Source: Acidobacteriota bacterium
GTDB lineage: Bacteria > Acidobacteriota > Terriglobia > Terriglobales > Acidobacteriaceae
Length of the DNA: 64,000 nt
NCBI GenBank assembly: GCA_021793405.1
Contig: JAJYSV010000013.1
Location: forward strand, 1 to 64,000
Direction of reading: 5' to 3'
Shown here: positions 39,008 through 64,000 of the stretch, piece after piece
How the letters are laid out: the number at the start of each line of letters is the position of its first letter
How positions within the stretch are numbered: the stretch's first letter is position 1
The notes under the pieces: generated by a model
Told to the model about the DNA's origin: nothing
Database searches by the model: none
The model's input: the letters and a program-made list of their open reading frames with translations, nothing else
Position numbers and translations under genes: made by a program

Positions 39008-41251
39008 TTAGTATGGGGGTGGTGTTACGCCCCAAGCTCGATTCGGGGAGGGTCCGACCTGAATATCGAGAATTCCGCCGGCCCTGATCTCGGTCTCGCG
39101 AAGCCAGGCGCGAGACAGCGTTCTACCATTTAAGGTAACGGACTGAATATAACTATCGCGGACTGGATCTCCCTGTACGTCAATTCTGAAATTTTTTCCA
39201 TTGCTCAGATGAAGCACAACATGCTGGAAGATCGGTGTCGCGAGAAAGTAGAACGGCTGTCCCACTGTCACGGGATAGATTCCCACGGAACTCAACACGA
39301 ACCACGCGCTCATTGTCCCGCCATCGTCATCCATCTCTGGCAATAGACCATCTGGCGTGGCACGGAATGCCTTCTGGATCACAGGCGTCGGGTAAAAATT
39401 GTGCGATCCATAGATGTTCTTCATCGGCTCCAGCAGGATGCGGTGCACATACTCCTGCGTCCTCCACGGTTGGCCGAGATAGTCGAAGAGATAGGGATAA
39501 TTGATGTCTGGCTCATTGGCAATCGTGAAGAGGTTATCGTTGAAAAACTTATGCAGCGATTCTACGGACGCCTGCTGTCCACCTTGCAACTTTGTCAGCC
39601 CAGCCAGGTCATACGGGACCGTCCAGCGGTACTGCCACATTGTGCCCTCGTAGAGATACTTATCATCGACGACTCTGGGGTCTTTGGCCGGCAACCAGTT
39701 CCCGTCTTGATCCTTGGCGCCAAAAAAGCCGGTCGCGGGGTTCCAAAGCGTGCGATAGTCGGCGGCTATCTGGTGATATTTGCGAGCGTCGTCCGGTCGA
39801 TGTAACATCGCTGCCCATTCGCCGACTGCCCAGGCTGCATAATCGTCGTCCAGCGTTCGGGCGGTGTGTCGCGGCTCATAGGGAAGTCCGTGCCTTCTCT
39901 GGTTGAGCCGGACTGCCAGCGCATCCCGTACCTGCAGGAACGTCTGGCTTGTCGGCTGGCAATCGCCTTTTCTGATCGAATCGACAAGATATTGCTCCGC
40001 CCCTTCCATGCGGGTGTTGGGACCGGGCCAATAGCCGACGGCCTGTTCGGAATATCGCTGGGCAAAGATTGCGGCAAGCGAATCACACATGTCGTGGGCT
40101 CTGGATTGATCGAGCAAGGACACCAGAGGCATCTGCGTACGATATGTATCCCATAGCGTCCAGCTACTGTAGTAGCGGAAGTTGTCGGATCGATGAATCT
40201 TCTGATCCGTCCCTCGATACTCGCCATCGAGGTTCGATACAGCGGCCGGCAGCAGCATGGCGTGATAGAAGCTGCTATAAAAGACCTTTTTCAGTTCCGT
40301 AGGACCATCGACAGATATCTGGCCGAGCGCCTTGTTCCAGGCATGACGTGCGGTATGCCTCGCGGCATCAAAATCCCAACCTTGTACTTCCTTATTGAGT
40401 TGTGTTCTTGCGTGTTCGGTATCGATCTCAGAAAAACCTATTTTCACTACGACGGGAGTCGGCGCGTTTTTTGCCAGATGGAGCTCGGCAACTACATTTT
40501 TTCCTTGTGCGGATGTGCCGGATTGCAGAGCGCCGTCGCGATACAACTTCATCGATTGCACGGGAACGCTGAGGGCCATGTAGAAATAGAGCTTGTACCA
40601 TCCCAGGTTCCACTTTTCTCCGTTGCACATTTGCCGGGTCTGGATGCTTCCCTCAAAGGCCTGCCCGGTAACGCGCGAAATTTCGGCGGCGTCAACGATC
40701 TGAGAGCCTCGGCGGAGGTCAAGCAGGAGTATCTCTGGAGAGCCGGGCGGAAAGGTGTACCGGTGGAGGCTCGCATGCTGGGTTACGGTGAGCTCCGCAC
40801 GAATGGAAGACGGGACGAGCGTGACCGCATAGTAGCCGGGCGTGGCGGTTTCCGATGCCTTGTCATATGGCTGCGCATATTTTGCAGGGTCCAGAGAGGC
40901 CGGATCCTCCGTGAATGGCAGGATGGATAGTATTCCGCCGAGCCCCTCGCAACCAACGCCGCTCATTCTGAAATGCGAGAAGCCGATGATTTTCTTATCT
41001 TGATAGTTGTAGCCTGCGTGGGCATCGTGGTTCAGGGAGCTGGGATAGGTATCCGGGCTTGCCGTCACCATGCCAAAAGGCAAAATCGGTCCGGGAAACG
41101 TTTGTCCATGGTCGCCGCTGGTACCGACAAAAGGGTTTGCCAGCTCAGCGGGCTGCTGCGCCACCAGCTGTCCGGCCAAGACTGCAAGGATCGCGAGCCA
41201 AATAGTATTCCTCAGGTGGCGTGTTCCATTCGTACCAATTCCCAATCGCAC
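39008..41251 (-). CDS. secreted GH92-like alpha-mannosidase
   Basis: A 747-residue exported protein (hydrophobic TIWLAILAVLAGQLVAQQ). It matches glycoside hydrolase family 92, which are Ca2+-dependent exo-alpha-mannosidases: NPFVGTSGDHGQTFPGPI with PFGMV at the N-terminus, GFSHFRMSGVGCEG, IANEPDINYPYLFDYLGQPW, and EMDDDGGTMSAWFVLSSVGIYPV near the C-terminus. The start codon is GTG, preceded by GGAGG. The family normally runs 700-800 residues. It is the first member of the carbohydrate island and is divergent from the Gfo/Idh/MocA gene. Confidence 0.88.
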   Translation of the reverse strand: MRLGIGTNGTRHLRNTIWLAILAVLAGQLVAQQPAELANPFVGTSGDHGQTFPGPILPFGMVTASPDTYPSSLNHDAHAGYNYQDKKIIGFSHFRMSGVGCEGLGGILSILPFTEDPASLDPAKYAQPYDKASETATPGYYAVTLVPSSIRAELTVTQHASLHRYTFPPGSPEILLLDLRRGSQIVDAAEISRVTGQAFEGSIQTRQMCNGEKWNLGWYKLYFYMALSVPVQSMKLYRDGALQSGTSAQGKNVVAELHLAKNAPTPVVVKIGFSEIDTEHARTQLNKEVQGWDFDAARHTARHAWNKALGQISVDGPTELKKVFYSSFYHAMLLPAAVSNLDGEYRGTDQKIHRSDNFRYYSSWTLWDTYRTQMPLVSLLDQSRAHDMCDSLAAIFAQRYSEQAVGYWPGPNTRMEGAEQYLVDSIRKGDCQPTSQTFLQVRDALAVRLNQRRHGLPYEPRHTARTLDDDYAAWAVGEWAAMLHRPDDARKYHQIAADYRTLWNPATGFFGAKDQDGNWLPAKDPRVVDDKYLYEGTMWQYRWTVPYDLAGLTKLQGGQQASVESLHKFFNDNLFTIANEPDINYPYLFDYLGQPWRTQEYVHRILLEPMKNIYGSHNFYPTPVIQKAFRATPDGLLPEMDDDGGTMSAWFVLSSVGIYPVTVGQPFYFLATPIFQHVVLHLSNGKNFRIDVQGDPVRDSYIQSVTLNGRTLSRAWLRETEIRAGGILDIQVGPSPNRAWGVTPPPY

Positions 41252-41412: not shown

Positions 41413-42423
41413 ATGCAAAACAAACTTCGCTGGGGAGTTCTCAGCACCGCTTCCATCGGCCTCAAGAAAGTCCTCCCCGCCATGCAACAGGGCCAGTACA
41501 CGACTGTCGCGGCCATCGCATCCCGCGACCTTGCGAAGGCTCGGAAGGCAGCGGCCGCGCTCGGTATTCCCACGGCCTACGGCTCGTACGAAGAACTCCT
41601 CGCCGACCCTACGATCGACGTCGTCTACAATCCCCTTCCCAATCAGCTGCACGTCCCCTGGACCATCCGGGCCGCGGAAGCAGGTAAACACGTTCTCTGC
41701 GAGAAGCCTCTCAGCCTGACCGTCGCTGAAGCCGAGTCGCTGCTCGCGGTTCGCTCTCGTACGGGGGTTAAGATTGGCGAAGCCTTCATGATCCGCAGCT
41801 ACCCGCAATGGCTCCGCCTGCGTGAGTTGCTCGACGAACGACGCATCGGAGAACTTCGCTCCATCGTCGGCTTCTTCAGCTACTTCAACGTCGATCCGTC
41901 GAACATCCGCAATCACATTGAATTCGGCGGAGGCGCTCTGATGGACATAGGCTGCTACCTTGTCCACGCATCGCGATTTGGATTCGCAGCACAGCCCACG
42001 CGAGTCGTCGGCTGTATCGACCGGGATCCGAAGACGCGAATCGATCGCTTGACGTCGGCGATTCTCGATTTCCCCGGCGGTCAATCTATCTTTACGTGCA
42101 GCACGCAGCTGGTTCCCTACCAGCGGATGCAATTTCTGGGGACTCGGGGACGCATCGAAATCGAAATCCCATTCAACGCTCCTCCCGACCGGCCAACTCG
42201 CATTTTCATCGACGACGGCGGCGACCTTTCCGGAAGCGGCATCACCACGGAAACGTTTCCCGTCTGCAACCAATACACGCTCCAAGGCGATGCTTTCTCC
42301 AAGGCCGTTCTGGACGGCGGCGAAGTTCCCGTGGCTGTCGAAGACGCGATCAAGAACATGGCCGTCATCGAAGCAATCTTCCATTCCGCCAACTCAGGAC
42401 AATGGGAATCGCCATTGCGATGA
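41413..42423 (+). CDS. Gfo/Idh/MocA family oxidoreductase
   Basis: A 336-residue NAD(P)-dependent sugar dehydrogenase. The Rossmann part has RWGVLSTASIGLKKVLPAM and IDVVYNPLPNQLHVPW, then the signature GKHVLCEKPLSL with the catalytic Lys. GGGALMDIGCYLVHASR supplies the second active-site residues. No signal peptide is present, so it is cytoplasmic. It probably oxidises or epimerises a sugar released by the island. ATG 41413 was chosen because it starts the Rossmann strand; a longer frame exists. The following glycosidase starts 17 bases after its stop. Confidence 0.88.
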   Translation: MQNKLRWGVLSTASIGLKKVLPAMQQGQYTTVAAIASRDLAKARKAAAALGIPTAYGSYEELLADPTIDVVYNPLPNQLHVPWTIRAAEAGKHVLCEKPLSLTVAEAESLLAVRSRTGVKIGEAFMIRSYPQWLRLRELLDERRIGELRSIVGFFSYFNVDPSNIRNHIEFGGGALMDIGCYLVHASRFGFAAQPTRVVGCIDRDPKTRIDRLTSAILDFPGGQSIFTCSTQLVPYQRMQFLGTRGRIEIEIPFNAPPDRPTRIFIDDGGDLSGSGITTETFPVCNQYTLQGDAFSKAVLDGGEVPVAVEDAIKNMAVIEAIFHSANSGQWESPLR

Positions 42424-42440
42424 AGGATCAAGAGTGCTGA

Positions 42441-44444
42441 ATGAAAAAACTGATTGTATTGTTCATGCTCCTTGGGACGGCAGCTGCTTCAGAAGCGCAG
42501 ATCACGGCGCCAGCAAGAGGCTTACAGGGCCACGCACAAATGCGTGGCATTCTTCAGTCCATTGAAAATGGAGACATCCAATCTGCCGGAGGTCATTATC
42601 TGGTAACAAGAAAAGACAGTCGCTTGCCGGTGGAAATGATCTTCAAGTCCTGTCAGGGTGTTGGCATCCATCGCGAACTCAATCAATGGTGGGTTTTGCC
42701 GATCAGTGCGGCCGGCAGTCAGATTGAGGTCAACACCAACCTTTGGGTGCTGCCTGAAAATCCACTCTCCCCGGAAAATTCCTGGTACATCAAACTGCAA
42801 CGCGGGGAATCGATTGTCGCCCGGCTTGACGATGTCTTGACCGTCCGCGTAAGTGGCGACAAGTTTGAACTGTATAAATCAGAAGCACGCCCTCACAGCG
42901 ATGCATTTAACAATCGTTATTCTTTCCACATCAACGACGGGGAGGCGCTTGAAAACGCCTTGGCCGGTTTTTACTGGGGAACCATGTTGCCGTCGGTCGT
43001 CGAAAAGACGAAGGCGAAGAACTATCCCTATCACGACGGGTATGTGGTCAGCACGCTGAATCCCAAATCCTATGCCGGCACGTATCCGGATGTCGATCAT
43101 GAATTTCAGATCAAAGGCCGTCTCGCGATGGGGTCTGCGCTCGATCTGGATATTGTCAGGCGCATGATTGCACTTCAGTTCAAGGTCATGAACGACGATC
43201 CCGAAAAGCTATTTCGCATTCCCTGCTCGGTTCAGCCTTCGGGCCTGCGCGAATACCACGTTCGCCGAAACAGTCAGGACAGGAGAACAAATGCTGAAAT
43301 GTTTCTGTTGACGGGCAATATTGAAGTATTGGAAGAGTCCTGGCGCTATTATCAGGCCACGAAAGACACTGCCTGGCTTCGCAGCAATATCGTCAATCTG
43401 GAAAACGCCGCTTCTTTGACCATCGCAAATACGGACCAGTACGGACGTGTATGGTCCGATGTCTATTACGAAGACCAGGTGATCAAAGATGGGCGCGTAA
43501 CTCAGGCAGGAGCATTCGCGGCCTATACATTTGGCCTGCTGGCCGGCATGGAAAATATTTTAAGCCGGAAAGAAAAGTCCATCTACTACTCCGGCTATTC
43601 AAAGAAGATAGCCGCCATGCTGGTCAAGCCTCTTCCGATGGGATTTTGGGATGAAAAAAATCAGCGATTTATCGATTGGGTCGATCGGAATGGCCAGGTT
43701 CACGACCATATTCATCTATTGTCCAATGAACTTCCTTTTCTTTTTGGGTATGCATCGGATGCTCAGGCCAATGCAGTGCGGCGTCTGATCGATGCAAATT
43801 TCGCATCCTTCGAAAGATTTCCCAGTTTCGTGGCGGCGGACGTTGCCGACTATACCAGATCGGAAATTGGAACCGGCGGCCCGTACGATCTGAGCGCTGC
43901 CGGCAGATATTGGTATTGGGACGCGGCTTTCTGGGCATCGCGCAATCGGGGCGACATACTCTTCAATCAACTCAAGACGGTGGCCAATGAAGCGGCGCAA
44001 ACCGATTACTTCATGGGTGAACGATACGACATGGACCATGTGTATTATGTCGATGGAAAGAACTGGCATGGAGCCGAAATGTATTACGAATATCCATGTG
44101 TGTACGCTTCGGTACTCATTAGAGACTTATTAGGGTTTACGTCTGCCGTCGATGCCGATGTATCCATCCAGCCGCACATCAACGGCTATGGCAGCGTGGA
44201 GTTCAGGATTCCCAGGTACGACGTGAAATATACATATGGCGCCAAAGGGTTTGTGCTGAAGAACTTTTCCGGTAAAACGAGACGCTTCAGGATCGATCTG
44301 TCCGGTCTCTACTCCGGCACAACGCGATATAAACTCGTGCGGAAGTCAAGCCATGAAATTGTGGGAGTAAGATCGACGGTTGAACTGTCTTCACAGGAAG
44401 AAGCCAGTTGGATTCCGATCCACGTGAGGCAAACGCTCCAATGA
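42441..44444 (+). CDS. secreted putative six-hairpin glycosidase
   Basis: A 667-residue protein with a signal peptide (KKLIVLFMLLGTAAASEA). I do not recognise a named family with certainty. An N-terminal beta-rich domain spans about 20-230. It is followed by a helical region (about 240-560) with regularly spaced Trp/Tyr-rich hairpins such as WRYYQATKDTAWLRSN and GRYWYWDAAFWASRNRGD, as in (alpha/alpha)6-barrel glycosidases. A short beta-sandwich then ends the protein. Acidic candidates lie in YDMDHVYYVDGKNWHGAEMYYE. The gene is A/T-richer than the first 38 kb. It follows the Gfo/Idh/MocA gene closely. Confidence 0.6.
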   Translation: MKKLIVLFMLLGTAAASEAQITAPARGLQGHAQMRGILQSIENGDIQSAGGHYLVTRKDSRLPVEMIFKSCQGVGIHRELNQWWVLPISAAGSQIEVNTNLWVLPENPLSPENSWYIKLQRGESIVARLDDVLTVRVSGDKFELYKSEARPHSDAFNNRYSFHINDGEALENALAGFYWGTMLPSVVEKTKAKNYPYHDGYVVSTLNPKSYAGTYPDVDHEFQIKGRLAMGSALDLDIVRRMIALQFKVMNDDPEKLFRIPCSVQPSGLREYHVRRNSQDRRTNAEMFLLTGNIEVLEESWRYYQATKDTAWLRSNIVNLENAASLTIANTDQYGRVWSDVYYEDQVIKDGRVTQAGAFAAYTFGLLAGMENILSRKEKSIYYSGYSKKIAAMLVKPLPMGFWDEKNQRFIDWVDRNGQVHDHIHLLSNELPFLFGYASDAQANAVRRLIDANFASFERFPSFVAADVADYTRSEIGTGGPYDLSAAGRYWYWDAAFWASRNRGDILFNQLKTVANEAAQTDYFMGERYDMDHVYYVDGKNWHGAEMYYEYPCVYASVLIRDLLGFTSAVDADVSIQPHINGYGSVEFRIPRYDVKYTYGAKGFVLKNFSGKTRRFRIDLSGLYSGTTRYKLVRKSSHEIVGVRSTVELSSQEEASWIPIHVRQTLQ

Positions 44445-44782: not shown

Positions 44783-46216
44783 ATGTTGAATCGCAGATCA
44801 TTTTTGTTGACGGGGAATAAAGTACTCGGCGCTCTTGCCATTTCAAACGTGGCCCCATCATTTGCGAGGAGCCAGGTGACTTCCGGAGTTGTCTCGATCC
44901 GTCTGAAGAGCGCTCCTCCGCTGGCGAATATTCCAGATAACTTTGTCGGACTTGGATATGAAATGTCCTCCGCCGCGCGTCTGGGCCTGCTTTCGGTACA
45001 GAATGCACGCTACGTGCGGCTGATTAAGAATCTCGGTCGAAAGGGAGTGCTGCGATTAGGAGGCATCGTCTCAGACTTCTCAAGGTACGCGCCGCAAGGC
45101 CAGATCGTCGCCGAGCCGAAGCACACTGTTGTCACACGGGCCAGCCTGGAACAACTCAGCGCCTTTCTGAAGGAGATTGGATGGACGGCAATCTGGAGCG
45201 TGAATTTTGGCAATGGAACGTTGGAAGAGGCCGTTACCGAGGCGCGCGCCGTTGCTTCGATACTAGGAAAAGGTCTCTATGCGCTCGAGATTGGCAATGA
45301 GGTGGACAGGTACGGGCACGGTGAGCACTCGCAGCGCAAGCCTCCCTACAACTATGACATGTACCGTGCAGAATATACGGTCTGGCACAATGCCATCTCC
45401 AATGCCGTCCCGGGGGTACGCTTCGCGGCGCCGGATGCCACCTTCTCCGCCGTTGAGTGGGTAGAGGAAATGTCAAAAGACGCCCACGGCGACGTACAGT
45501 TGCTCACGATCCACTATTATCGCAACGGTCAGCGGAGGGGTAGCGTCGAACAGTTGGCGGTGCCGGACCCCATGCTGCAAAGCAAGCTAAAGCGACTGAA
45601 AGCGACTGCCCGGCAAAGCGGCATTCCATGGCGGATGTGCGAGACGAACTCGTTCTCCGGTGGGGGAAGGCCAGGAGTAAGCGACACGATGCTTGCTGCG
45701 CTTTGGACCTTGGATTACATGCTGCTGCTGGCACAGTACGGCTGTGCCGGTGTAAACATTGAGACTGGCGTGAATCAGCTCGGCTTTGTGAGTTTCTATT
45801 CTCCGATCCAGGACGACGGCAAGGGTAACAACACCGCAGGCGTGCCCTACTACGGAATGCTGGCCTGCGTTACGGCAATGGATGGCTCACCTGAAGTGTT
45901 ACCCATCGACATGGATCTCCATGGCATGAACATAACTGCGTACGCACTCGGAACAGCGGGGAAACCGCGCTCTCTGGTGGTAGTGAACCGCGATCCTTCG
46001 CAGGATGCGGAGGTCGTGTTCGCCGATCTGAAGATGGGCAGCGTGCATGCCATGCGCCTGTCCGCCCCGTCTGAGTTCTCCCGCGCGGACGTCACCTTCG
46101 CGGGCGCCGCTGTGGACGCTGGCGGGCATTGGAGACCTAGGAAGGTTGAGTCGATCCGCAACGGAAAGGTCACCGTGCCGCGTATGAGTGCAGTGGTTTT
46201 GCTGCATGCGATTTGA
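44783..46216 (+). CDS. secreted GH79-like beta-glucuronidase
   Basis: A 477-residue protein with a Tat-like signal (NRRSFLLTG, then a hydrophobic run to about residue 28). The (beta/alpha)8 barrel shows LRLGGIVSDFSRY, the acid/base Glu in ALEIGNEVDRYG (E173) and the nucleophile Glu in MCETNSFSGGG (E287). A C-terminal beta domain follows. These fit family GH79, which removes glucuronic acid or 4-O-methyl-glucuronic acid. It is preceded by GGAGAGC. A truncated sulfatase follows directly. Confidence 0.75.
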   Translation: MLNRRSFLLTGNKVLGALAISNVAPSFARSQVTSGVVSIRLKSAPPLANIPDNFVGLGYEMSSAARLGLLSVQNARYVRLIKNLGRKGVLRLGGIVSDFSRYAPQGQIVAEPKHTVVTRASLEQLSAFLKEIGWTAIWSVNFGNGTLEEAVTEARAVASILGKGLYALEIGNEVDRYGHGEHSQRKPPYNYDMYRAEYTVWHNAISNAVPGVRFAAPDATFSAVEWVEEMSKDAHGDVQLLTIHYYRNGQRRGSVEQLAVPDPMLQSKLKRLKATARQSGIPWRMCETNSFSGGGRPGVSDTMLAALWTLDYMLLLAQYGCAGVNIETGVNQLGFVSFYSPIQDDGKGNNTAGVPYYGMLACVTAMDGSPEVLPIDMDLHGMNITAYALGTAGKPRSLVVVNRDPSQDAEVVFADLKMGSVHAMRLSAPSEFSRADVTFAGAAVDAGGHWRPRKVESIRNGKVTVPRMSAVVLLHAI

Positions 46217-46221
46217 GCAAA

Positions 46222-46784
46222 GACGAACGAGGTGTACCAGCCCTACCCTGGACAAACTGGCGGACCGCGGCATCGGTTTTGACCGGGCCTACGCGACGAC
46301 TCCACTCTGCGTCCCGAGCCGTACAACCATGTTGACCGGTAGATGGCCGGAGGCGCATCACGTCCGCATGAACCTGGATGCCAACGATGCGTACTACGAA
46401 AAGAACGTGTACCAGGTAGCCAAGGGAATGGGCTATCAGACCGGGCTGGCAGGCAAGAACCACACTTTTTTGCGCAAGGGGGACCTGGATTACTGGAGGC
46501 CCTACATGCATTGGGAAGGATATAAAGGCCCCGATGCACCCAAGGCCTACTACGAATATGACCAGTGGATGCGCGGGTTGGATGCCGAAGCAGCGTCGAC
46601 TCCGACTCCTTTTCCAGTTGAGGTGGGATATCCGTACAGGATTGTCTCGGACGCAATCGAATTTATGGACCAGGCTGGAAGCCAGCCCTTCATCCTCCAG
46701 GTCGGCTTTCCTCTGCTCCAGTTCTTGCTTCGTTTGCAGTCCATTGGGAGGTGCACCGTCGGCAATATCAGATTTAACCTATAA
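46222..46784 (+). pseudogene. truncated sulfatase
   Basis: The reading frame contains a sulfatase core without its start and end. SPTLDKLADRGIGFDRAY is followed by the formylglycine motif C-V-P-S-R (LCVPSRTTMLTGR) and VAKGMGYQTGLAGKNH. About 35 expected N-terminal residues with the first metal-binding Asp pair are missing. After PFILQVGFP at about 46710 the homology stops and the frame ends in unrelated residues. It lies directly behind the GH79-like gene and faces the GH127-like gene. Confidence 0.8.
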
Positions 46785-49356: not shown

Positions 49357-49404
49357 ATGTAATCCTTCAAAGACAATATGTTCTTTCTGGAAATAGTTTT
49401 TCAT

Positions 49405-49691
49405 CCAAACTCTAGTGAAGGACGAGAACTTTTGTCAATCGGCGCCCACCATCACTCGTGGAGCGCGTATTCAAAGTGCCCAATTGCAGGATCTCGCAGG
49501 ATGCGATCCTGTCGTTCTCTCCACCCCCTGACAATTACATTTTCCATGCTCTTTTAGCGCGATCCTGATCTCCTACTAGATGTTGTATTGAAGGAGTTTT
49601 TCTATTGACACACATGCAATCCCTCTGATTTACTTGCTTCCGTTATCAAGGCACCTGCTTTAAGCAAGGCCTATGCGATGCATTTAATCGG
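49405..49691. other. divergent intergenic region before the TonB receptor
   Basis: No gene is supported. A small inverted repeat (AGGATC 49488-49493 / GATCCT 49505-49510) is present. TTGACA at 49605-49610 with TTTACT 18 bases later is a possible promoter for the plus-strand receptor. Confidence 0.4.
49605..49634 (+). promoter_or_regulatory. possible promoter of the Oar-like receptor gene
   Basis: A consensus -35 TTGACA (49605-49610) is followed after 18 bases by TTTACT (4 of 6 match to TATAAT). The leader to the start codon would be about 150 bases and includes the sulfatase remnant. Confidence 0.35.
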
Positions 49692-49799
49692 TTCGACGAA
49701 TCGCACGAAATAACTAACTTCAAAGCCAAGCCGGAAGACGTTTTGAAGCCGTTGGCGCTCCAGGCATTGGGGAATGGGAGCAAATATGCAAAAGCGTAA
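49692..49799 (+). pseudogene. C-terminal sulfatase remnant before the TonB receptor
   Basis: This frame reads FDESHEITNFKAKPEDVLK and stops inside the receptor gene. It matches the last residues of the sulfatase at 54885-56513 (FDRSRGITSFPNKPEDVLK). The DNA is identical over 18 bases (49731-49748 and 56481-56498). It is the tail of a second copy of that sulfatase, whose main part is gone. Confidence 0.7.
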
Positions 49800-54884: not shown

Positions 54885-56513
54885 ATGTACAAAATGAAGG
54901 ACATTGACAGACGATCCGCCTTAAAATTGATGGCCGGCGCCTCTGCCTTGCTCTCGCCTTCTAACTTTAGTTTGCAAGCGCAGTCGGTCAGGAAATCACC
55001 GAATAAACCGAATGTTCTGTTTTTGATGGTCGATCAGCAGCGGTTCGACACCATCGCTGCGCTCGGCAACCGAACCATCTACACACCCCATCTGGATCGT
55101 CTGGTGGATCGCGGATTGGCATTCACCAACACGTATTCCCCCTGTCCGGTGTGCGTGCCCGCGCGGTATTGCATCCGAACCGGTTGTAAACCGCCGACAA
55201 CCAGTATTTTCTGCAACGAGCGAGCACACCCTGCCCCTAACCAGGCGCCGACGATGACAGGTCGATGTGGGCCATATTTGGCCCAAACCATGAAGAATTT
55301 GGGCTACCGTACGTTTGGGATCGGGAAATTCCACACCATTCCGTGGGATGAAGAGTTGGGCTACGATGTGCACCTGCACAGTGAAGAGCTATATAGCACT
55401 CCCGACCAGCGCAAGCGAGACTCTTATGCTTCTTGGATTGCGACCCAGCATTCCGAATTCAACTTTATTGAGGGCTTGATGGGAGAGCGCACAGAGATGT
55501 ACTACATGCCTCAAATGAGTCCGATGCCCGCGGCCGTGACTGTTGAGGGATGGGTTGCGACTCAAGCTGTCGATCAGATCGGTCGGCAGGATAATCGACC
55601 ATACTTCGGCTTCGTGTCGTTCATAGGTCCACATCCTCCATTCGCACCGCCGATCCCATTCAACCGTCTGTATGATCCAGATCGCATGCCCAACCCAGTT
55701 GTAGGAGACCTGGAAAACGACTTCATGGATGAACAAATCCCTTTCATGAACTATGAGGTTTGGGCAAACGATATCGGAGAGTCCCATGCACGCGTTTTAA
55801 AGGCCCGTTATTACGGCGAGATCACCTATATCGATTCCTGCATAGGGCGCATTCTGGATGCGGTCGAACGGCGCGGAGATGCGGAAAACACTGTGATATG
55901 TTTCTTCGCTGACCATGGGGACCACCTAGGCGATCATCATGGCTGGCAAAAGGAGAGCTTTTTTGAAGCATCCTGCCATGTACCGCTACTTGTCAGTTGG
56001 CCCGCGCGACTTCCCGCCGCTCACCGCCGAAACGATTTGGCCTGTCTTACTGACCTCTTTGGAATCGCTACCGGCGCCGCCGGCCACCAGGAGATACGGC
56101 AAGGCAACGATATCCTCGGCGTTACCGCTGGAACTCCTCAAGAACGGCAGGATTTGGTGTGCTTCTATGGAGATCCAGGAAGCAGGCAGTTCAAGGTGAT
56201 GGTCCGCTTCGAGCAGTGGAAGTATATTTTCATGGCCAATGGCGGACGCGAACAGTTATTCCACCTCCAGGACGATCCAAACGAGTTGACTAACGAAGCC
56301 AAGATTCGCAGCGAAATCAAACAGCAACTTTACGGCAAGGCACTGGCGGCATGCCAAACGCCAGAATTGAGAGCCGTGCTGGACGGCGACGGCCTCCGAA
56401 AGCTCCCGTTTCAAGCGAGGCCGCTGCGGCGCATTTATCAGTTCGACAGGTCGCGCGGCATCACGAGTTTTCCGAACAAACCGGAAGACGTTTTGAAGCA
56501 CTGGCATTCCTAA
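54885..56513 (+). CDS. sulfatase, Tat-like signal
   Basis: A 542-residue sulfatase. DRRSALKLMAGASALLSPS is a twin-arginine type signal. The metal site starts at FLMVDQQRFD; the formylglycine motif is C90-V-P-A-R94 (C-x-P-x-R). GIGKFHTIPWD and VICFFADHGDHLGDHHGWQKESFFE with further metal ligands are present. It is longer than the other two intact sulfatases, mainly between residues 100 and 260. The end FPNKPEDVLKHW is duplicated at 49692. The start follows GGAAGGA with about 5 bases spacing. Confidence 0.9.
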   Translation: MYKMKDIDRRSALKLMAGASALLSPSNFSLQAQSVRKSPNKPNVLFLMVDQQRFDTIAALGNRTIYTPHLDRLVDRGLAFTNTYSPCPVCVPARYCIRTGCKPPTTSIFCNERAHPAPNQAPTMTGRCGPYLAQTMKNLGYRTFGIGKFHTIPWDEELGYDVHLHSEELYSTPDQRKRDSYASWIATQHSEFNFIEGLMGERTEMYYMPQMSPMPAAVTVEGWVATQAVDQIGRQDNRPYFGFVSFIGPHPPFAPPIPFNRLYDPDRMPNPVVGDLENDFMDEQIPFMNYEVWANDIGESHARVLKARYYGEITYIDSCIGRILDAVERRGDAENTVICFFADHGDHLGDHHGWQKESFFEASCHVPLLVSWPARLPAAHRRNDLACLTDLFGIATGAAGHQEIRQGNDILGVTAGTPQERQDLVCFYGDPGSRQFKVMVRFEQWKYIFMANGGREQLFHLQDDPNELTNEAKIRSEIKQQLYGKALAACQTPELRAVLDGDGLRKLPFQARPLRRIYQFDRSRGITSFPNKPEDVLKHWHS

Positions 56514-56709: not shown

Positions 56710-59700
56710 TTACGCTGGAGACAGGCGCAATGTCACCTTGCGGCGTGGAATGATCCTGACGGGTCCCATCAAACCCGAGAGAGGCAACGGATGAAAGTCT
56801 TTCTCCCGCTCCTTCCACTCTTTTGCACCTTCACTATAAATGTAGGTAGTCTCGCCATAATGCGGAATTAAGTCATCCGGCACCTCTGGAAGAGAATCTA
56901 AACCGGAAACATAATTGATCAGTGTGTTTGTAACTAAGATCTCAATACGATTCATTCCATTCTTCAGCATCCCGGTTATATCCAGTCTGTAGGGTTGCAT
57001 CCAAGCCACTCCAACAGCCCTGTCATTCAGAACCACCTCCGCTATCTCACAAACTTTTCCAAGATCCAGTATTACCTCTAAATCTTGGCCGATGTACGCA
57101 CTCGGAATCTCGAAATCTAGCGTATAGCGTCCCGTTCCCGAAAAATGCTTTGTCAATGGGCTGTCCGTCCACGAGTTCAACCGCGTAAGCTGTTGCACCA
57201 CCTTCTCAAATCGATACCCTTCGAGGATCACATTCCAAGTGCCACCTATCACGTACGGTTCAGGTATCCCCGACACCGTAGTGCTTGCTGTCTTGCTATG
57301 GCCGTTTTCAACAACCGTTATCCGAACCTCGCCATTACGGCTTGCAATACCTTCAACCTGCTGGTCCGACAGGCCCCTTACCTCCTCCAGACTTGCCTCA
57401 CTCAGGTGAGCCTGCGGAGGCCTCGATCTAAATAAAAAGAACGTTGAGGCATAAGGAGGCAAATCGATTGGAATCTCTACGCCCTTCGCGCTAGTTGTAT
57501 AAATAACAACAGGGTCAATCTTGCCTGTCATCGGATCCCAACGCTCGGGGATTTTTCCGGGAACTCGGAACGTGATGATCGCACGGCTCGCGTCCGACTG
57601 TAAGTTAGTAACAAAGTAGATGTCATCGAGTCCCAGCCGACGATGTAGGAATGTAAGCCCATTGCTCGGTTGATTCCCCGAAAATGCAAAATCTGGATCT
57701 AGATGATCTTTTAGTGCAATTATCAGCGCCTGCTGCGATGAGGTTGATGGAGGTGATGACTGCTGTTTTTGACTGGTTGGATCGAAAAGACGCTCGGTAG
57801 TTTCGTAATCCGGAATCTTATAGTTAGCAATATAGTATGTCTGGCCACCCCGCGGATGAACTTTTCCACTACCGTCCGGCCCGAACAGTTCACTCACGAT
57901 CAGTTTGACCCTGGCGTCGTGTTCAATGCAGTTGGTCAGCCCGACGGATGTGGACGGTAACTCGTCTAGCGCAATCACAAAGCCGCCCTCGAGCGCAAAC
58001 TGCCGTATAATTTCCATAGTTGCCACCGGCACGGATGTTGTGCGTGGCAAAACAAGAAAACGATAGCTGAGGTCTCGGATCTTGATTTGCGAGTCAGCAA
58101 TCACAGCGTGGTTCTGCAGAACATCGTCATTTACAGGATCAAAGTCGTATCCGTTTGTAACTAGGATCTGTCCTACATCCCCGTAGGGCATCACTCTGCG
58201 CTCATTATTAAACAGTACCTTTTCGGTCCACACGGTTGACTGCGGAGAATAGACAAGAACGTCTGCTGCAAACTCGCCTTGGCGTAATAGAAAACAGCAC
58301 CGAGCTATATACTCGGACAAGCAATGATAATACTTCCACCACGTGTTCCAATGACTGATCCGGTTGGCCCATGGAACGTCTCTGGATGGCGCCACATGCA
58401 TCTCTGGAGAGTAAAGGTATCCATGATTGTAGAACTGGGTTACTCCATCACGGAGAAACGCGTCAGTTGCAATCTTCATCTCCTCTAAGGTAGTGCGGTA
58501 ACGTTGCGGGTGGAGGAACGTATAAGCTTCTGCAGAGATAATTCTGCGACCATAGAGATGACCTCCAGCGGCAACCGCCTTGCGGGGATCTGTTACTACC
58601 GCAAAGCGAGACGTCGTTACTTCCATTTCAGGGCGTGGAGTCATCCCCGCCCCCTGGATAAGCTCTTCCGTAAATCGATAATATGGCTGAATCCTAGCCT
58701 GGATGCTATGCGAGTTACACCAATCAATAAAAGTCCTGAAAGTTGCTTGTAGTCCAAGCCATCCCAAAAAGTCATTTACATCGTAGCGTACCTTTGGAGT
58801 GAGTTCTCCAATGTCCCACCAAATTCCTGGTAAATACCGCTTCAGGTCGTAGCTCTTGTATACTAAGAAGTCATTGAGTGCAGCATTGCTCCAGTGTATG
58901 GTCCCCGGGATCACCATAATTTCAAAGCTGTCGCAAAATAAAGTATCTACAGTTCTGCCGAACTCAAAGCCTGAAGAGTGATAAAGTGCCCCTCCCAGAT
59001 AGTCGCAGTAGTCTCTCATCGCATCTACGCTGAAATGATCTACAACCCATTGTTGCCTGGAAAAATTCTGGGTTGTAGCACACTGCTCGCCGGTATACTT
59101 CAAGCGAAATGCCATGATTCTCCAGTTTCCTTCAGGGATCTTCCATTGCAGCTTGTTGTCGTACGCTTCGCTTGTCAGATCCGTCAAAGAATCGGGATCG
59201 AGTTGCTCATCTATGATCCTCGCCGCAACCACTGCAACAATTTGATTTTCATCTGGAGCATCTGAGTGAAAAGTTGGATCTATATCGAAGTGACCTTTCA
59301 AAGGAGGCTTATATGCGGGCAGTTCCTTATGGTAGCTATATGGACCGCGTACATCTTCCCATGCGTGCGTCAATACCTTGCTGCGTTGTGTTGAAGGCAC
59401 CCAGAAACCACCGAATTTCCATCCGGGGCAGAAGGTAATCGCCACGTCCATGTCTCTTTTCCCGGCTTCCCGGATTGCATGATTCACCATATCGAGGAAC
59501 TCTCGGGAGAGATAGTCGATATTGCCTTGGGCGTACATCCCCCAAGGGGTCATGATCTCAACTCCACCCATTCCCTGCTGGTGCATCTGCTCTAATTGCC
59601 AGGTGATTCCATCCTCCGTAACCGCATTTCCAGGCCACCACCAGCGAGTATGGGGCCGATAACTGCGGGTGGGATTAAGCCAACCGTATGTAAGAGACTG

Positions 59701-59850
59701 TAAAGTTTCGGCTCCAGGTTCTGCCAAACTGTCTGATGAGGCTGATCCAGTTGCCGCCAGCAGCCAATCGCCTGATATATGAAGCATTTTTCCAAAAGCG
59801 GCAGCTTTCGCAAGACCTTGGAGAAATATACGGCGTGTGTATTTGGACAT
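56710..59850 (-). CDS. secreted GH106-like alpha-L-rhamnosidase
   Basis: A 1046-residue exported enzyme with a twin-arginine-like signal (YTRRIFLQGLAKAAAFG). It matches glycoside hydrolase family 106: RPHTRWWWPGNAVTEDGI, QGMGGVEIMTPWG and DVAITFCPGW in the barrel, then a middle region with DTLFCDSFEI. A C-terminal beta-sandwich has GRYTLDFEIPSAYIGQD and LNDRAVGVAWMQPYRLD, as in the family's galactose-binding-like domain. Start ATG at 59850 follows GGGAGGT; a frame 12 residues longer exists. It would remove terminal L-rhamnose. Flanked by sulfatases on both sides. Confidence 0.85.
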   Translation of the reverse strand: MSKYTRRIFLQGLAKAAAFGKMLHISGDWLLAATGSASSDSLAEPGAETLQSLTYGWLNPTRSYRPHTRWWWPGNAVTEDGITWQLEQMHQQGMGGVEIMTPWGMYAQGNIDYLSREFLDMVNHAIREAGKRDMDVAITFCPGWKFGGFWVPSTQRSKVLTHAWEDVRGPYSYHKELPAYKPPLKGHFDIDPTFHSDAPDENQIVAVVAARIIDEQLDPDSLTDLTSEAYDNKLQWKIPEGNWRIMAFRLKYTGEQCATTQNFSRQQWVVDHFSVDAMRDYCDYLGGALYHSSGFEFGRTVDTLFCDSFEIMVIPGTIHWSNAALNDFLVYKSYDLKRYLPGIWWDIGELTPKVRYDVNDFLGWLGLQATFRTFIDWCNSHSIQARIQPYYRFTEELIQGAGMTPRPEMEVTTSRFAVVTDPRKAVAAGGHLYGRRIISAEAYTFLHPQRYRTTLEEMKIATDAFLRDGVTQFYNHGYLYSPEMHVAPSRDVPWANRISHWNTWWKYYHCLSEYIARCCFLLRQGEFAADVLVYSPQSTVWTEKVLFNNERRVMPYGDVGQILVTNGYDFDPVNDDVLQNHAVIADSQIKIRDLSYRFLVLPRTTSVPVATMEIIRQFALEGGFVIALDELPSTSVGLTNCIEHDARVKLIVSELFGPDGSGKVHPRGGQTYYIANYKIPDYETTERLFDPTSQKQQSSPPSTSSQQALIIALKDHLDPDFAFSGNQPSNGLTFLHRRLGLDDIYFVTNLQSDASRAIITFRVPGKIPERWDPMTGKIDPVVIYTTSAKGVEIPIDLPPYASTFFLFRSRPPQAHLSEASLEEVRGLSDQQVEGIASRNGEVRITVVENGHSKTASTTVSGIPEPYVIGGTWNVILEGYRFEKVVQQLTRLNSWTDSPLTKHFSGTGRYTLDFEIPSAYIGQDLEVILDLGKVCEIAEVVLNDRAVGVAWMQPYRLDITGMLKNGMNRIEILVTNTLINYVSGLDSLPEVPDDLIPHYGETTYIYSEGAKEWKEREKDFHPLPLSGLMGPVRIIPRRKVTLRLSPA

Positions 59851-60164
59851 GTCAAACCTCCCACGAAGTGTTGGGCAGTTATGCATTGCTATCTTGGCGG
59901 TCGAGGGTTCGGGTCCAGGTTGAGCGGGGCGATGGGCTCCCGCCGAGGTTATGCGGAGCGGAAAGGTGCAGCGATTCCTGATCCAAGCATGCTACGAGGA
60001 AATCCTTGTCGGTCCCGATCATATCCTTCGCCATCGCCCTGTCTGGATTGTGCGAACAAGCCAGCTCCTCTTGCAAGAAGTCAAGCCCACGCATTGGTCC
60101 TTACATCGCGAGATGCTAAACGCTCCTCAAGTGACGCTCAAAAGAGAGGCGGACACATCATCGA
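59851..60164. other. intergenic with an unassigned open frame
   Basis: About 310 bases separate the rhamnosidase start from the next sulfatase's stop. A minus-strand open frame at 59879-60094 (starting MRGLDFLQEELACSHNPD) shows no family that I recognise and lacks a good ribosome site. No clear promoter or hairpin was found. Confidence 0.4.
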
Positions 60165-61640
60165 TCAGTTCCTACCCACCGGAGGGGCGAGATTCGGATG
60201 CTTTGATGCCCACGTCAGATATTCCGGCACCGTGCGGAACGTCCTGTAGTCGAAGAGCCTGCCGCCGTCCTCCACCGGAGCCGTCCAATCCAGGCTCCAC
60301 GAATCCCCCTCGCGCGCCATCCACGTCAGTAACCTCTGGTCTAACTCGTCCCGAACCGTCTTTGCCGATGCATCCTCCACAAGATTGTTCATCTCGTAAG
60401 GGTCCTTTTCAAGGTCGTAGAGGAGCCAAGGGCCTGATTCCCATCTCGCATACATGTACCGCTCCGTCCGGATGCCGCGCCACGCATGCTCCACGCCTCC
60501 GGCATGGTAAGGGCCGAATATCTGGAAAAACGCCGCATCGGAGCCCTTCTCTCTCTTTCCAGTAACGATTTCGGATTGATCCGTTCCCTGCATGTCCGTT
60601 GGAACAGGAAGCCCGCACAGTGATAGCAAGGTGGGAGCGAAATCGACATGCGAAATAAGGGCGTCGGTCTTGCGCCCAGACGGGATCAGGCCCGGGCAAC
60701 GCATAATCCCAGGCACACGGATCGATTCCTCCCATGGCTTTCGCTTTAAGATTTTCCCCTGTGATCCAAGCATGTTGCCGTGGTCGGAAGAGAACAGCAC
60801 GATCGTGTTCTCTTCCAGTCCAAGCTCGTGTAAAGTGCGCTGCACCAGACCCACCTGGTCGTCGATCGCTGTGATCGCCGCATAATAGGCGGCAATCTCC
60901 TTGCGACCTGCGCCTCGCACACCCTCAACCCAGTTCGGCTCCATGGTCAGATTCTTAGGATCGTAGAGGTCGAGGTACTTCTGCGGCGCGATGTACGGGT
61001 CATGCGGAGCGCCTATGGCGAGCATCAGGAAAAACGGTCGGTCCTGCGACTCGTAGAGAAACTCAATCGCCAGCTGCGTCCAGAACTCCGGCTCGTATTG
61101 CTCGGTCACAATCGGCACATTCTCATCGCGGAAGTACCAGTTGTAAAAGTAGTTGTGATTACATTCGTTCGCCGCCCAGTGCTGGAACCCGTGACGCCTG
61201 CGCCCTGGCGGAACATATCCGGGAAAACGTGGGCCTCCGTCCAGATGCCATTTCCCCACGTATCCGGTTCGGTACCCGGCCTGAGAAAACAAGTCGCCCA
61301 TTGTAATCTTGGATTCATCCAGGCGTAGATCGTTGGCAACCATCCCCGTCCGGCTGGTGTACGTGCCGGTCAGCATCACAGACCGTGCCGGGCAGCATAC
61401 CGGGGTGTTGGCAAGCGTGTTCCGCATCAGAATACCTTCCGAGGCCAGTCGATCCAGATGGGGAGTCTGAACATCGGGATTGCCCATGCACCCGAGCGCT
61501 TGCCCCCTCCATTCGTCGGGAAGAATAAATATGACATTGGGCGGACGCTTCGCGTCCGTTCGTGTCTCAGCAATGCTATGCGGCAATCCCACGCTCGCGA
61601 ATGCCCCGGCTGCCCCCTTCATGAATTTGCGCCGATCCAT
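60165..61640 (-). CDS. sulfatase, Tat-exported
   Basis: A 491-residue sulfatase. DRRKFMKGAAGAFASVG is a twin-arginine signal. The metal site is IFILPDEWRGQALG, with Glu at the position usually held by the second Asp (PDE). The formylglycine motif is C82-C83-P84-A85-R86. GYVGKWHLDGG and VLFSSDHGNMLGSQG follow, with the C-terminal RGIRTERYMYARWESGP. It resembles iduronate-2-sulfatase-like members, but substrate choice is not readable. It lies 17 bases after the TonB receptor gene on the same strand, so the two are probably co-transcribed. Confidence 0.9.
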   Translation of the reverse strand: MDRRKFMKGAAGAFASVGLPHSIAETRTDAKRPPNVIFILPDEWRGQALGCMGNPDVQTPHLDRLASEGILMRNTLANTPVCCPARSVMLTGTYTSRTGMVANDLRLDESKITMGDLFSQAGYRTGYVGKWHLDGGPRFPGYVPPGRRRHGFQHWAANECNHNYFYNWYFRDENVPIVTEQYEPEFWTQLAIEFLYESQDRPFFLMLAIGAPHDPYIAPQKYLDLYDPKNLTMEPNWVEGVRGAGRKEIAAYYAAITAIDDQVGLVQRTLHELGLEENTIVLFSSDHGNMLGSQGKILKRKPWEESIRVPGIMRCPGLIPSGRKTDALISHVDFAPTLLSLCGLPVPTDMQGTDQSEIVTGKREKGSDAAFFQIFGPYHAGGVEHAWRGIRTERYMYARWESGPWLLYDLEKDPYEMNNLVEDASAKTVRDELDQRLLTWMAREGDSWSLDWTAPVEDGGRLFDYRTFRTVPEYLTWASKHPNLAPPVGRN

Positions 61641-61657
61641 AAGTGCTTGCTCCTGTC

Positions 61658-64000
61658 CTAGAATTGATATTGCAAGGAAAATTCAGCAATCCGCGGATCA
61701 GCAGCGCTGATTACCTGACCGTAGGTGCCTGAGCCGAAGTTAGTCGACACAGTCGCGAAATTTGTATGGTTAAATATATTGAATAGCTCTCCTCTAAATT
61801 GAATGCTGTGTTGCTGTGTGATATGAAATGTTTTATACAGCGCCATATCGAAGTCGATAGTGCCGGGACCAAGGATGGAGCCGACGGATGCATTGCCAAA
61901 ATAGCCAGCCGCAGGTGCGGAAAACGCCGCCGTATTGAACCATTCAGCTACCTTCTTCGGCCCTTTGATTGGCAAACCTGTCACATTCGGTCGAGTTGCC
62001 AGTCCTTGGTCAGCTACGCTCAGTCCTGGATCCAGCGATGATCCACTTTGTACGGTAGTGATATCCGAATACTGCCAACCTCCCAAGATAAGTTGCTCAA
62101 TTGTGGAAGCGCTATGGAGTCCTGGCAAAGTCCATATCGCACTCAATGAGAATACTTGTGGAGTGTTGAGCAGTGAGTTCCCGTAGTTGCGTGACATGTT
62201 ATAGGAGTTTTGTACCACAGCACTCCCTCCAAAAATGCCGGTCCCATCCACGTCGGCGAGATCGTGCTGCCAGGTATACGCTGCGCTCAAGTACAGATTA
62301 TTACCCGCCCTGTGGGTCAGACTGGCCTCAAGAGCATCCCAATAGCCAACTCCTTCCGAGGTTCTAGTTGTAATCGCGCCATAGCCCTGGTATGGCCCAT
62401 AAACGTATGGAAACACAGTACCGCTGTTAATGATTGGGTTATAGTCGTAGGAGCCATCAGGGAGTGGCTGATTGTAATTCAGGTTCGCAGAAAGGTGACG
62501 GGCAATATTTCCAGCTCCCGCTACTGACAAGACCCAGTTATTTGCTAACTGACGCTGCACGCTCAGGCTGTAACTCTGGATTTGCGCGGGCTGTAGGGCG
62601 AGAGCTTGACTTACCAATGGCGAGGCTCCAGCAGGCTTTACTTGAGCACCAACTGCATTCGGGAAGGATGGATTGATTAAGGTAAGGCTTTGCACGAACG
62701 GTGGATTATTCGAGCAGGTATAGCTGCAGTCATACCCAGTCGGGACTCGAGTGTATGCGATTCCGTATCCGCCTCGTATCGAGGTCGTGCCATCGCCGAA
62801 AACATCGTATGCAAAGCCGATCGTGGGGGCCCAAAAGTTTGCATGGACGCTGGAAAAATTCAACGGGACTCCATTGACCCCGTTAAAGATCAGACCGTTG
62901 GTTGGGCTGTAATTCGCTGTCGGTGTAATCGTACCATTCGGGTTTACGATTGGAGCCTGGTCCAAGGAGTAAGTCGCTGGATCAAAGATGGTCTCAGTGT
63001 TTCGGAGCGTATGCGGAAGCGGCTCCCAAAGGAATCGGAAACCGCCCGATAGGGTCAGTCGCGGGGTCAACTTCCAGGTATCCTGTACCCATGGAGAAAC
63101 AATAGGATAATACATGTATGGTCTGGTTTCCGTATTCGCTTGTGTGAGCGTCGCCGCATATCCCAGAAGATAGTCGGCAATTGGATTGCCGGTAGTGGCT
63201 CCGGTGAAAGTCCACAGACCATTGCTGGCTGATGCATCCGTCTGCCGCTTCAGGCCGTAGTAGTAGCTGAAACCAAGCTGCAAGTAATGTTTCCCGTGCA
63301 GCCAACTCCAGTCATCGGAAATCGTTAAATCCAGATTGCTATTACCGATGAGTGGCAGGCCGGTGGCGGCGCCAAAGGGGGCCCAGCCACCGGAAAAATT
63401 TATTTCTGGAAGGCGATCGGTCCCGAGCCCGGTCGTATAAGGGACAGTTTGAGAATAGCCTGGCAATTGACTCAATAATGAAATGCCCTCTTGTGTGAGG
63501 CTGACTACACGATGGTTCATTGCGACGCTAGTGTTATTGATCATGTTGGGTGAGAGGGTAGCCGTGAACGCAACCTGAGTAAGATAATCGGGCCATTTTA
63601 CGTTCTCTCTGCTCGTGCTGAATGGAGGACCGAGATAGGCGTTATCTGAGTAGAGGGTATTCGCGTGTTCTCCAATATATTCCGCTGTTAGTCGATACTT
63701 CTGGGTAAAATATTGGTCTACTTTTATCTGATCGTTGCGCTGGGCATTGATTTGCGGAACGGTATTCAGATAATTGTCGAATCCACCTGCGAGGTTGTTT
63801 GGAAGTGGAGCCATGGCATTCATGAGCGTAACAGCCTGCGGGACCAACCTGCTTGAAGGGATGATATTGCCAGGGAAGGGAAGATGAGTGGCTGGATCGA
63901 TGATGGGCGTTGAGGTTGAGCTGAAGTTCCCGTCACGCTCCTGAGTAGTCGGAGATGCGCCACGGATAACGGAACCGATGTGAACCGGACTCCACTGTTG
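61658..64000 (-). CDS. Oar-like TonB-dependent receptor, N-terminus beyond window
   Basis: The last 780 residues of a large outer-membrane receptor; the frame stays open to the window edge at 64000. It begins in the visible part with QQWSPVHIGSVIRGASPT and runs through beta-barrel sequence, ending in ADPRIAEFSLQYQF, the aromatic C-terminus for barrel insertion. RGELFNIFNHTNFA near the end is shared with the receptor at 49786-53160 (RGEFFNAFNHTNFG). The signal peptide, regulatory-like domain and plug must lie outside the window. It pairs with the downstream sulfatase. Confidence 0.88.
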   Translation of the reverse strand, partial: QQWSPVHIGSVIRGASPTTQERDGNFSSTSTPIIDPATHLPFPGNIIPSSRLVPQAVTLMNAMAPLPNNLAGGFDNYLNTVPQINAQRNDQIKVDQYFTQKYRLTAEYIGEHANTLYSDNAYLGPPFSTSRENVKWPDYLTQVAFTATLSPNMINNTSVAMNHRVVSLTQEGISLLSQLPGYSQTVPYTTGLGTDRLPEINFSGGWAPFGAATGLPLIGNSNLDLTISDDWSWLHGKHYLQLGFSYYYGLKRQTDASASNGLWTFTGATTGNPIADYLLGYAATLTQANTETRPYMYYPIVSPWVQDTWKLTPRLTLSGGFRFLWEPLPHTLRNTETIFDPATYSLDQAPIVNPNGTITPTANYSPTNGLIFNGVNGVPLNFSSVHANFWAPTIGFAYDVFGDGTTSIRGGYGIAYTRVPTGYDCSYTCSNNPPFVQSLTLINPSFPNAVGAQVKPAGASPLVSQALALQPAQIQSYSLSVQRQLANNWVLSVAGAGNIARHLSANLNYNQPLPDGSYDYNPIINSGTVFPYVYGPYQGYGAITTRTSEGVGYWDALEASLTHRAGNNLYLSAAYTWQHDLADVDGTGIFGGSAVVQNSYNMSRNYGNSLLNTPQVFSLSAIWTLPGLHSASTIEQLILGGWQYSDITTVQSGSSLDPGLSVADQGLATRPNVTGLPIKGPKKVAEWFNTAAFSAPAAGYFGNASVGSILGPGTIDFDMALYKTFHITQQHSIQFRGELFNIFNHTNFATVSTNFGSGTYGQVISAADPRIAEFSLQYQF

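Follow-up and report, generated by a model that had tools for sequence, protein, structure and literature searches.

What do the sulfatases, glycosidases and outer-membrane receptors crowded into the right-hand part of an acidobacterial contig act on, and do they act together? The window, i.e., the whole stretch of DNA analysed here, covers the first 64,000 of the 72,310 bp of contig C90 in a genome (G000) of 4.60 Mb in 137 contigs, and an earlier note on it had proposed that its last 25 kb form a single system for a sulfated polymer of rhamnose, uronic acid and arabinose, either ulvan-like or a plant or microbial exopolysaccharide. The answer reached below is narrower. The segment from 49.6 kb to the contig end (72.3 kb) is, with some reserve, probably a SusD-less cluster for sulfated L-rhamnosides, to which the glycosidase genes of the left part, having arrived or stayed independently, would not belong. 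Sulfated L-rhamnosides are the likely target because the segment combines a sulfatase of the S1_25 clade (S1), an alpha-L-rhamnosidase of glycoside hydrolase (GH) family 106 and an adjoining rhamnonate-dehydratase-like gene. Rhamnose as the target is further supported because the association of S1, GH106, an S3-type sulfatase and an Oar-type receptor recurs in another genus.

Among solved structures, S1 is best matched by 6HR5, the GH78/sulfatase P36 of Formosa agariphila (312 bits; the next match reaches 215), and in a maximum-likelihood tree of 30 rows S1 and its three orthologues form a clade with P36_S1_25 (6HR5), with a support of 100/99. One aligned active-site column holds Gly in S1 (GKFG), in the orthologues of genomes G156, G151 and G166, and in P36 (GKYG). 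The sulfatase set compared consists of 29 distinct open reading frames (ORFs), each 380 aa or longer and taken from the examined loci, 13 near-duplicates having been removed, and is not the full complement of any genome; across it, the same column is His in 24 ORFs and neither residue in one divergent ORF. According to the available part of PMC6315715, Gly (KFG) replaces in S1_25 enzymes a His conserved in other S1 sulfatases, and this may distinguish the subfamily; the longer formylglycine pattern given there, CxxxRxxxxxG, has G where S1 has Ser, the core CxxxR being present as CCASR. In the part of PMC9096561 consulted, P36_S1_25 is listed as an exo-3-sulfo-L-rhamnose sulfatase, and the entry for SWF4, another member of S1_25, is exo-3-sulfo-L-fucose sulfatase. 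S1 is predicted to be an exo-3-O-sulfatase acting on terminal L-rhamnose or L-fucose. Its close orthologues among 200 genomes are those of G156 (94% identity), G151 (68%) and G166 (58%), the remaining listed matches at E <= 1e-60 being 33-37% identical.

The GH106 protein scores 246 bits against PF17132 (cut-off 29) and 277.5 against the NCBIfam BT4145 equivalog, whose cut-off of 1300 is not reached; its PDB relatives, 5mqm and 6q2f, we take to be GH106 structures. Among the matches listed from 200 genomes of the family, only those of G133 (61%) and G151 (55%) are close relatives. A paralogue on contig C136 of the own genome (L068:2346-6707), 41-43% identical, adjoins a DDE_3 transposase-like gene, and the other listed matches are at most 35% identical, bar short C-terminal stretches of up to 46%. 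In G151, which belongs to another genus, the GH106 orthologue is accompanied by two GH43 genes, an Oar gene and four sulfatase genes. These four include the S1 orthologue and, of all sulfatases read, the one most closely related to S3 (39% identity, 100/100 in the tree); the S1 and GH106 orthologues, the Oar gene and the S3 relative all lie within about 21 kb. The G133 orthologue is accompanied by GH3, GH35, Oar and sulfatase genes and by a short S3-like fragment.

A further 8.3 kb of the contig lie past the window end, with the rest of the receptor gene Oar2, an AP_endonuc_2-type TIM-barrel gene, an ORF matching solute-binding proteins, a Gfo/Idh gene, an MR_MLE gene, an ORF with an IclR-type helix-turn-helix domain (133 aa) and a second GH106 gene (GH106b) that runs off the contig end. 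Five of the seven best solved matches of the MR_MLE protein, which together span 252-279 bits (the eighth reaches 203), are named L-rhamnonate dehydratase, and the gene is here called rhamnonate-dehydratase-like. The extracellular solute-binding-protein-like ORF (L009:6202-7425) overlaps the start of the TIM-barrel ORF, and no permease match was found among the scanned neighbours.

These parts suggest a pathway. Two Oar-type receptors would carry oligosaccharides across the outer membrane. The sulfatases would be matured by the formylglycine-generating enzymes of the genome, exported folded via the twin-arginine route, as their motifs suggest, and act in the periplasm. There, S1 would take the 3-O-sulfate off terminal L-rhamnose, as predicted from its subfamily, and GH106 would then cut the freed rhamnose, i.e., the two-step logic of the fused GH78-S1_25 protein P36 carried out by separate genes, while S2 and S3 would take off other sulfates. 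Rhamnose would finally be oxidised and enter the rhamnonate-dehydratase route presumably encoded next door.

Each of the named enzymes has a Pfam match above the curated cut-off, and the scanned part of the contig spans 35.4-72.3 kb. The gene set of the earlier note was found where it had been placed: GH92, GH79, GH127, GH106 and three intact sulfatases by Pfam, together with two sulfatase remnants, an unclassified putative glycosidase and two Oar-type receptors. A Gfo/Idh oxidoreductase gene, at about 41413-42423, has to be added. The features are:

39008..41251, minus strand: GH92 glycosidase (Pfam GH92 N and catalytic domains, E 2.1e-109)
41413..42423, plus strand: Gfo/Idh/MocA-type sugar oxidoreductase (Pfam E 1.6e-22; start codon inferred, the ORF opening at 41221)
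42441..44444, plus strand: unclassified 667-aa putative glycosidase of the (alpha/alpha)-barrel type (rhamnosidase-like predicted fold)
44783..46216, plus strand: GH79 beta-glucuronidase-like protein (Pfam GH79 C-terminal domain; E 1.1e-56 to the Acidobacterium capsulatum beta-glucuronidase)
46220..46707, plus strand: sulfatase remnant 1, both ends missing (PF00884 E 6.6e-16; reading frames)
46813..49404, minus strand: GH127-type enzyme with a twin-arginine-like N-terminus (Pfam E 5.3e-25)
49684..49749, plus strand: sulfatase remnant 2, corresponding to an S2-like 3' end (66 nt, 71% identical to 56434-56499)
49774..53160, plus strand: Oar1, Oar-type outer-membrane receptor (PF25183 E 8.8e-209, and PF13620)
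53283..54731, plus strand: S1, S1_25-clade sulfatase with CCASR and GKFG (Pfam, tree, alignment)
54885..56513, plus strand: S2, sulfatase with CVPAR (Pfam; nearest solved chain annotated choline-sulfatase)
56710..59886, minus strand: GH106 alpha-L-rhamnosidase with a twin-arginine-like N-terminus (Pfam E 9.6e-73; PDB relatives 6q2f, 5mqm)
60165..61640, minus strand: S3, sulfatase with CCPAR (Pfam; nearest relative among the sulfatases read at the G151 GH106/S1 locus)
61658..64000, minus strand: Oar2, Oar-type receptor (Pfam; extends past the window to contig base 65083)

Oar2 is intact, at 1141 aa, once the contig beyond the window is included. The best solved match of S2 is 7OZ8, annotated as choline-sulfatase, and those of S3 are 2QZU and 6J66. 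Remnant 1 (in 46188-46784) is a sulfatase truncated at both termini, which covers PF00884 profile positions 23-170 of 301 and keeps CVPSR. Remnant 2 repeats the S2 3' end over 66 nt at 71% and lies 24 bp upstream of Oar1; its reading frame is kept in the same-genus genome G156. Being short, it is the weaker case of the two. A short fragment beside the G133 GH106 locus (L064:11615-11761), 58% identical to S3 residues 43-94, is a possible sulfatase remnant in another genus.

Whether the 25 kb form one unit can be judged from G156, a draft metagenome-assembled genome of the same genus (85% complete, 310 contigs) in which mis-joins are possible. Several window modules occur there at 88-93% DNA identity, in separate places, and the idea of one conserved 25-kb unit was rejected after this comparison. 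Position 39008 is no island boundary: synteny with G156 continues, with a 3.1-kb indel, through GH92 to 41296. GH92 is a member of the conserved left flank and not of the sulfatase cluster, because in G156 it stands near the same flank (32118-38887), separated from it by 3.1 kb that are missing from the own genome. In by-eye translations, this G156 stretch between the ABC transporter and GH92 (L090:6912-10000) contains PAS/GAF-like, STAS-like and Crp/Fnr-like ORFs; on the window side, 35416-38884 holds consecutive genes for an HlyD-type fusion protein, an ABC ATPase and an ABC-2 permease, a likely export system.

The Oar1-S1-S2 module (49598-56749) has as neighbours in G156 a PRiA4_ORF3-like gene and the gene for a pyruvate dehydrogenase E1; the latter lies in the own genome on contig C40, where the 20 kb read contained no window-gene homologue at E 1e-5. 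The TIM/Gfo/MR_MLE/IclR/GH106b block is found on a further contig of G156. The gene for the 667-aa protein lies in G156 (L091:7101-9435) inside a region that is contiguous on contig C17 of the own genome (L095:6333-6407), where 73 bp replace the about 2.3 kb that carry it, i.e., an empty site, the gene itself being elsewhere in the own genome; no mobile element was recognised at this site. The relocation of the 667-aa gene is the stronger case, as its two flanks lie within contigs in either genome, whereas that of Oar1-S1-S2 depends on one junction. GH79, GH127, GH106 and the first Gfo/Idh gene have no close match in G156, and S3 and Oar2 are absent from the G156 contig stretches holding S2 and the TIM block, to which that search was confined. 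The 25 kb thus seem to be a mosaic of separately moving parts and not one inherited unit, the modules having either joined after the species split from its relative or been separated in the relative.

How the parts moved was also considered. Repeats at the junctions were discarded as a mechanism, only isolated single 12-mers being common to non-homologous junctions, and, between 38.8 and 64 kb, remnant 2 is the only noteworthy direct repeat. No transposase gene was found among the genes scanned at the junctions. An empty site for the whole island was not found in other genomes; G062, G012, G085 and G138 showed only GH106b, with no neighbouring rhamnonate gene. The G+C content of four modules (0.505-0.522) is below that of the left flank (0.586), but this was set aside as proof of transfer and is only suggestive, given that GH79 (0.574) and Gfo/Idh (0.588) are without such a shift and that other contigs are at 0.533-0.575. 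The case suggests that such gene clusters can be mosaics, so that adjacency across 25 kb is no safe guide to a substrate.

GH79 matches the Acidobacterium capsulatum beta-glucuronidase, its closest solved relative, over residues 29-457 of 477 (E 1.1e-56); in the alignment to 5g0m, the GNE.D and ETNS motifs align, which presumably hold the GH79 catalytic Glu residues, and the N-terminus is twin-arginine-like. At E <= 1e-80, a GH127 relative is present in 12 of the 200 genomes of the family, the own one counted. In none of 11 neighbourhoods of such relatives (nine fetched, plus L093 and L094) was a match to S1, S2, S3 or remnant 1 found nearby, at 1e-10 and with uneven flanks, so that distant sulfatases would be missed. 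An Oar match is near in five of the 11, and the nearest relative (78%) adjoins an Oar gene and a distant GH106 match. With GH92 tied to the left flank in the relative, the 667-aa gene at another site and such sulfatases near GH127 relatives in 0/11 neighbourhoods, the proposal of a single 25-kb system with one substrate is not supported.

The 667-aa protein (42441-44444) has no sequence match in Pfam, NCBIfam or PDB. Its relatives were found in 20 loci (L014-L033), seven acidobacterial, nine from Bacteroidota and four from Actinomycetota, and in an alignment of 17 rows, 50-88% identical to the window protein, numerous positions are invariant, some of them acidic (e.g., D340, E344, D350 and E475). 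An AlphaFold2 model (mean pLDDT 71, pTM 0.76) comprises two beta domains, one of them C-terminal, and a helical barrel-like part. The top nine VIA rows for this model are rhamnosidases by title or name (Z 20.8-22.8), followed by a cellobiose phosphorylase (19.7), in a ranking of Foldseek-ranked chains that leaves room for families off that list. The Bac_rhamnosid6H profile is matched weakly by five of 17 family members (best E 0.00099), and not by the window protein itself at E up to 1. Rhamnosidase-like activity is a lead suggested by the model, not a result, and the protein is a candidate for a new glycosidase family. Deriving its substrate from neighbouring genes was tried and rejected: the 20 loci share no other window gene at E 1e-20, the exceptions being weak matches to Oar (L014) and to a sulfatase (L022), and ten scanned neighbours from three of the loci are of mixed functions. 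In Granulicella sp. L46 they comprise GH31, a pair of GH35-like genes and two more of other kinds; L025 has genes for a phosphorylase, a decarboxylase and a tRNA synthetase; and L017 has efflux and pectate-lyase-like genes.

Both receptors combine a carboxypeptidase-regulatory-like N-domain with an OMP_b-brl_4 barrel, a pair that we take to mark Oar. The absence of SusD, as claimed by the earlier note, was borne out: the SusD_RagB model (PF07980), the one SusD model used, has 0 matches across the 4.6-Mb genome, a Bacteroides control being matched, and no SusD gene was found among the eight ORFs scanned in L009, the final 12.3 kb of the contig, which take in the 8.3 kb past the window, where a SusD gene directly after the window had been named as contrary evidence. 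Across the genome, an Oar barrel match lies no more than 5 kb away from 11/19 sulfatase matches, the fraction by chance being about 7%; the count takes sulfatase matches of more than 800 bases, from 25 places (27 matches, merged or dropped), and Oar matches at 24 places from 29. The linkage is 8/16 without contig C90 and 6/12 when counted by contig, the genes being clustered so that binomial values overstate the significance. This frequent adjacency makes the SusD-less pairing of Oar and sulfatase a habit of the genome, and the role of the receptors as importers is likely.

A twin-arginine-like motif, matched by pattern, is present in 26/29 sulfatase ORFs. Matches to the formylglycine-generating enzyme family occur in three genes; two of them are matched along almost the full profile, and one of the two stands beside a sulfatase and an Oar gene on contig C81. 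In that stretch (74482-80569), the three matches lie within about 6 kb, near the contig end, and the Oar match contains one in-frame TAG. Sulfatases as such are common in the family, with a match above the Pfam cut-off in 102 of 120 genomes in a survey that scored only 17 candidates per genome. On this point the system is less unexpected for a soil acidobacterium than had been stated, yet the own genome has the most first-look candidates (33; the next has 31). Four same-genus genomes of the sample have 3 to 6, and two outside it, G156 and G199, have 15 and 20 first-look S1 candidates, respectively; sulfatase richness varies within the genus.

Several observations weigh against a sulfated-rhamnoside cluster. 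In the sulfatase tree, P36 is among several long branches and its place was flagged as unsure by the program. The S1_25 subfamily includes the fucose-3-O-sulfatase SWF4, so that the choice between rhamnose and fucose depends on the neighbouring genes, and S2 and S3 appear to have no clear substrate, judging from their solved relatives. Four genomes have a close S1, and a GH106 orthologue is near it in just two of them, G000 and G151. The G156 contig with Oar1-S1-S2 beside the pyruvate dehydrogenase gene shows no GH106 match in the 14 kb seen, and S1 of G166 sits among FeoB, a thiamine-diphosphate enzyme and an Alginate_lyase-domain protein, with no GH106 relative in the stretch read; an obligatory pairing of S1 and GH106 is therefore disfavoured. 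The remaining two of the seven best MR_MLE matches are a generic superfamily enzyme and a putative galactonate dehydratase, and the best NCBIfam model, L-rhamnonate dehydratase, scores 314.7 bits, below its equivalog cut-off of 393, hence the cautious name of the gene. One of the 11 Oar-linked sulfatases (on C64) pairs only with an Oar fragment, and the predicted export steps are drawn solely from motif matches.

The most serious competitor is that the unrelated glycosidases and sulfatases share no substrate and, beside generic receptors, each serve for a different glycan of plant or microbial origin; GH79, GH127 and GH106, for instance, might act on the ends of arabinogalactan or rhamnogalacturonan. 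The mosaic structure, the turnover evident in two sulfatase remnants and the neighbourhoods of GH127 relatives, with Oar in 5/11 and an S1/S2/S3-like sulfatase in none, all agree with it; the recurrence of the S1/GH106/S3-type/Oar association in another genus and the adjoining rhamnonate-type catabolism do not, and we regard it as unlikely, if by no means negligible. A fucose-3-sulfate, fucoidan-like target instead of rhamnose would suit the other characterised S1_25 enzyme, SWF4, a fucoidan exo-3O-sulfatase according to the available part of PMC6315715. The Pfam-scanned genes of 35.4-72.3 kb include no fucosidase family, two GH106 genes and a rhamnonate-dehydratase-like gene being present instead, which makes this target improbable.

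One dedicated ulvan-type utilisation system over all 25 kb, to which the grouping of S1 with the ulvan enzyme P36_S1_25 and the possible action of GH79 and GH106 on a polymer of rhamnose and glucuronic acid would lend themselves, is very improbable. No GH88/GH105-family gene is among the scanned genes of the cluster, the only match in the genome being on contig C118; no lyase family is among the scanned window genes, no genome-wide search having been aimed at ulvan lyases (PL24/25/28/40); several modules are at separate sites in the same-genus genome; and GH127 relatives are without a nearby S1/S2/S3-like sulfatase (0/11). Of the earlier ulvan-like guess, a sulfated, rhamnose-containing target survives, on the strength of the S1_25 clade, GH106 and the rhamnonate-dehydratase-like gene, and ulvan itself is unsupported. 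The sulfated L-rhamnoside cluster from 49.6 kb onwards is thus the reading we retain.

A wider extension can be offered tentatively: Oar-sulfatase blocks and single glycosidase genes of Acidobacteriaceae might be relocating cassettes that attach to resident loci of sugar catabolism, through which a rhamnose/rhamnonate locus would here have gained access to a sulfated rhamnose polymer, and the 667-aa protein might found a rhamnosidase-like family outside Pfam and NCBIfam. If this were true, sulfated rhamnose polymer would be a real nutrient on land.

How, then, does the cluster compare with known systems? In the ulvan locus of Formosa agariphila, terminal rhamnose is desulfated and then cleaved by P36 (GH78|S1_25), according to the available part of PMC8511951. 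The likeness is the pairing of an S1_25-clade sulfatase with an alpha-L-rhamnosidase; here, in contrast, the genes are separate, the rhamnosidase is GH106 and not GH78, there is no SusD, no lyase or GH105 is among the scanned genes of the cluster (lyases not having been specifically searched), and the host is a soil-type acidobacterium. With the SusC/SusD loci of Bacteroidota the cluster has in common an outer-membrane receptor beside glycoside hydrolases and sulfatases, but its receptors are of the Oar type and the genome has 0 SusD_RagB matches. SWF4 of Wenyingzhuangia fucanilytica has the same S1_25 signature (His to Gly, KFG; available part of PMC6315715), whereas its substrate is fucose. 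The methyl-pentose clusters (GH78/GH106) of Verrucomicrobiota, as far as the part of PMC8857213 consulted goes, likewise have sulfatases around rhamnosidases, with S1_25 present, but differ in their marine hosts and in having GH36 and GH2 beside the rhamnosidases. A literature search covering titles and abstract openings of the papers listed, with few subscription papers, returned no description of such a cluster in soil Acidobacteria. As read here, the cluster is an Oar-based, SusD-less, split version of the known logic of rhamnose sulfatase and rhamnosidase. It would give a soil-type acidobacterium a specific chemistry known from marine bacteria, namely terminal L-methylpentose 3-O-desulfation followed by rhamnoside cleavage, which implies a terrestrial source of sulfated rhamnose, and the SusD-less pairing of Oar and sulfatase on which it is built is suggested to organise much of the sulfatase set of the genome.

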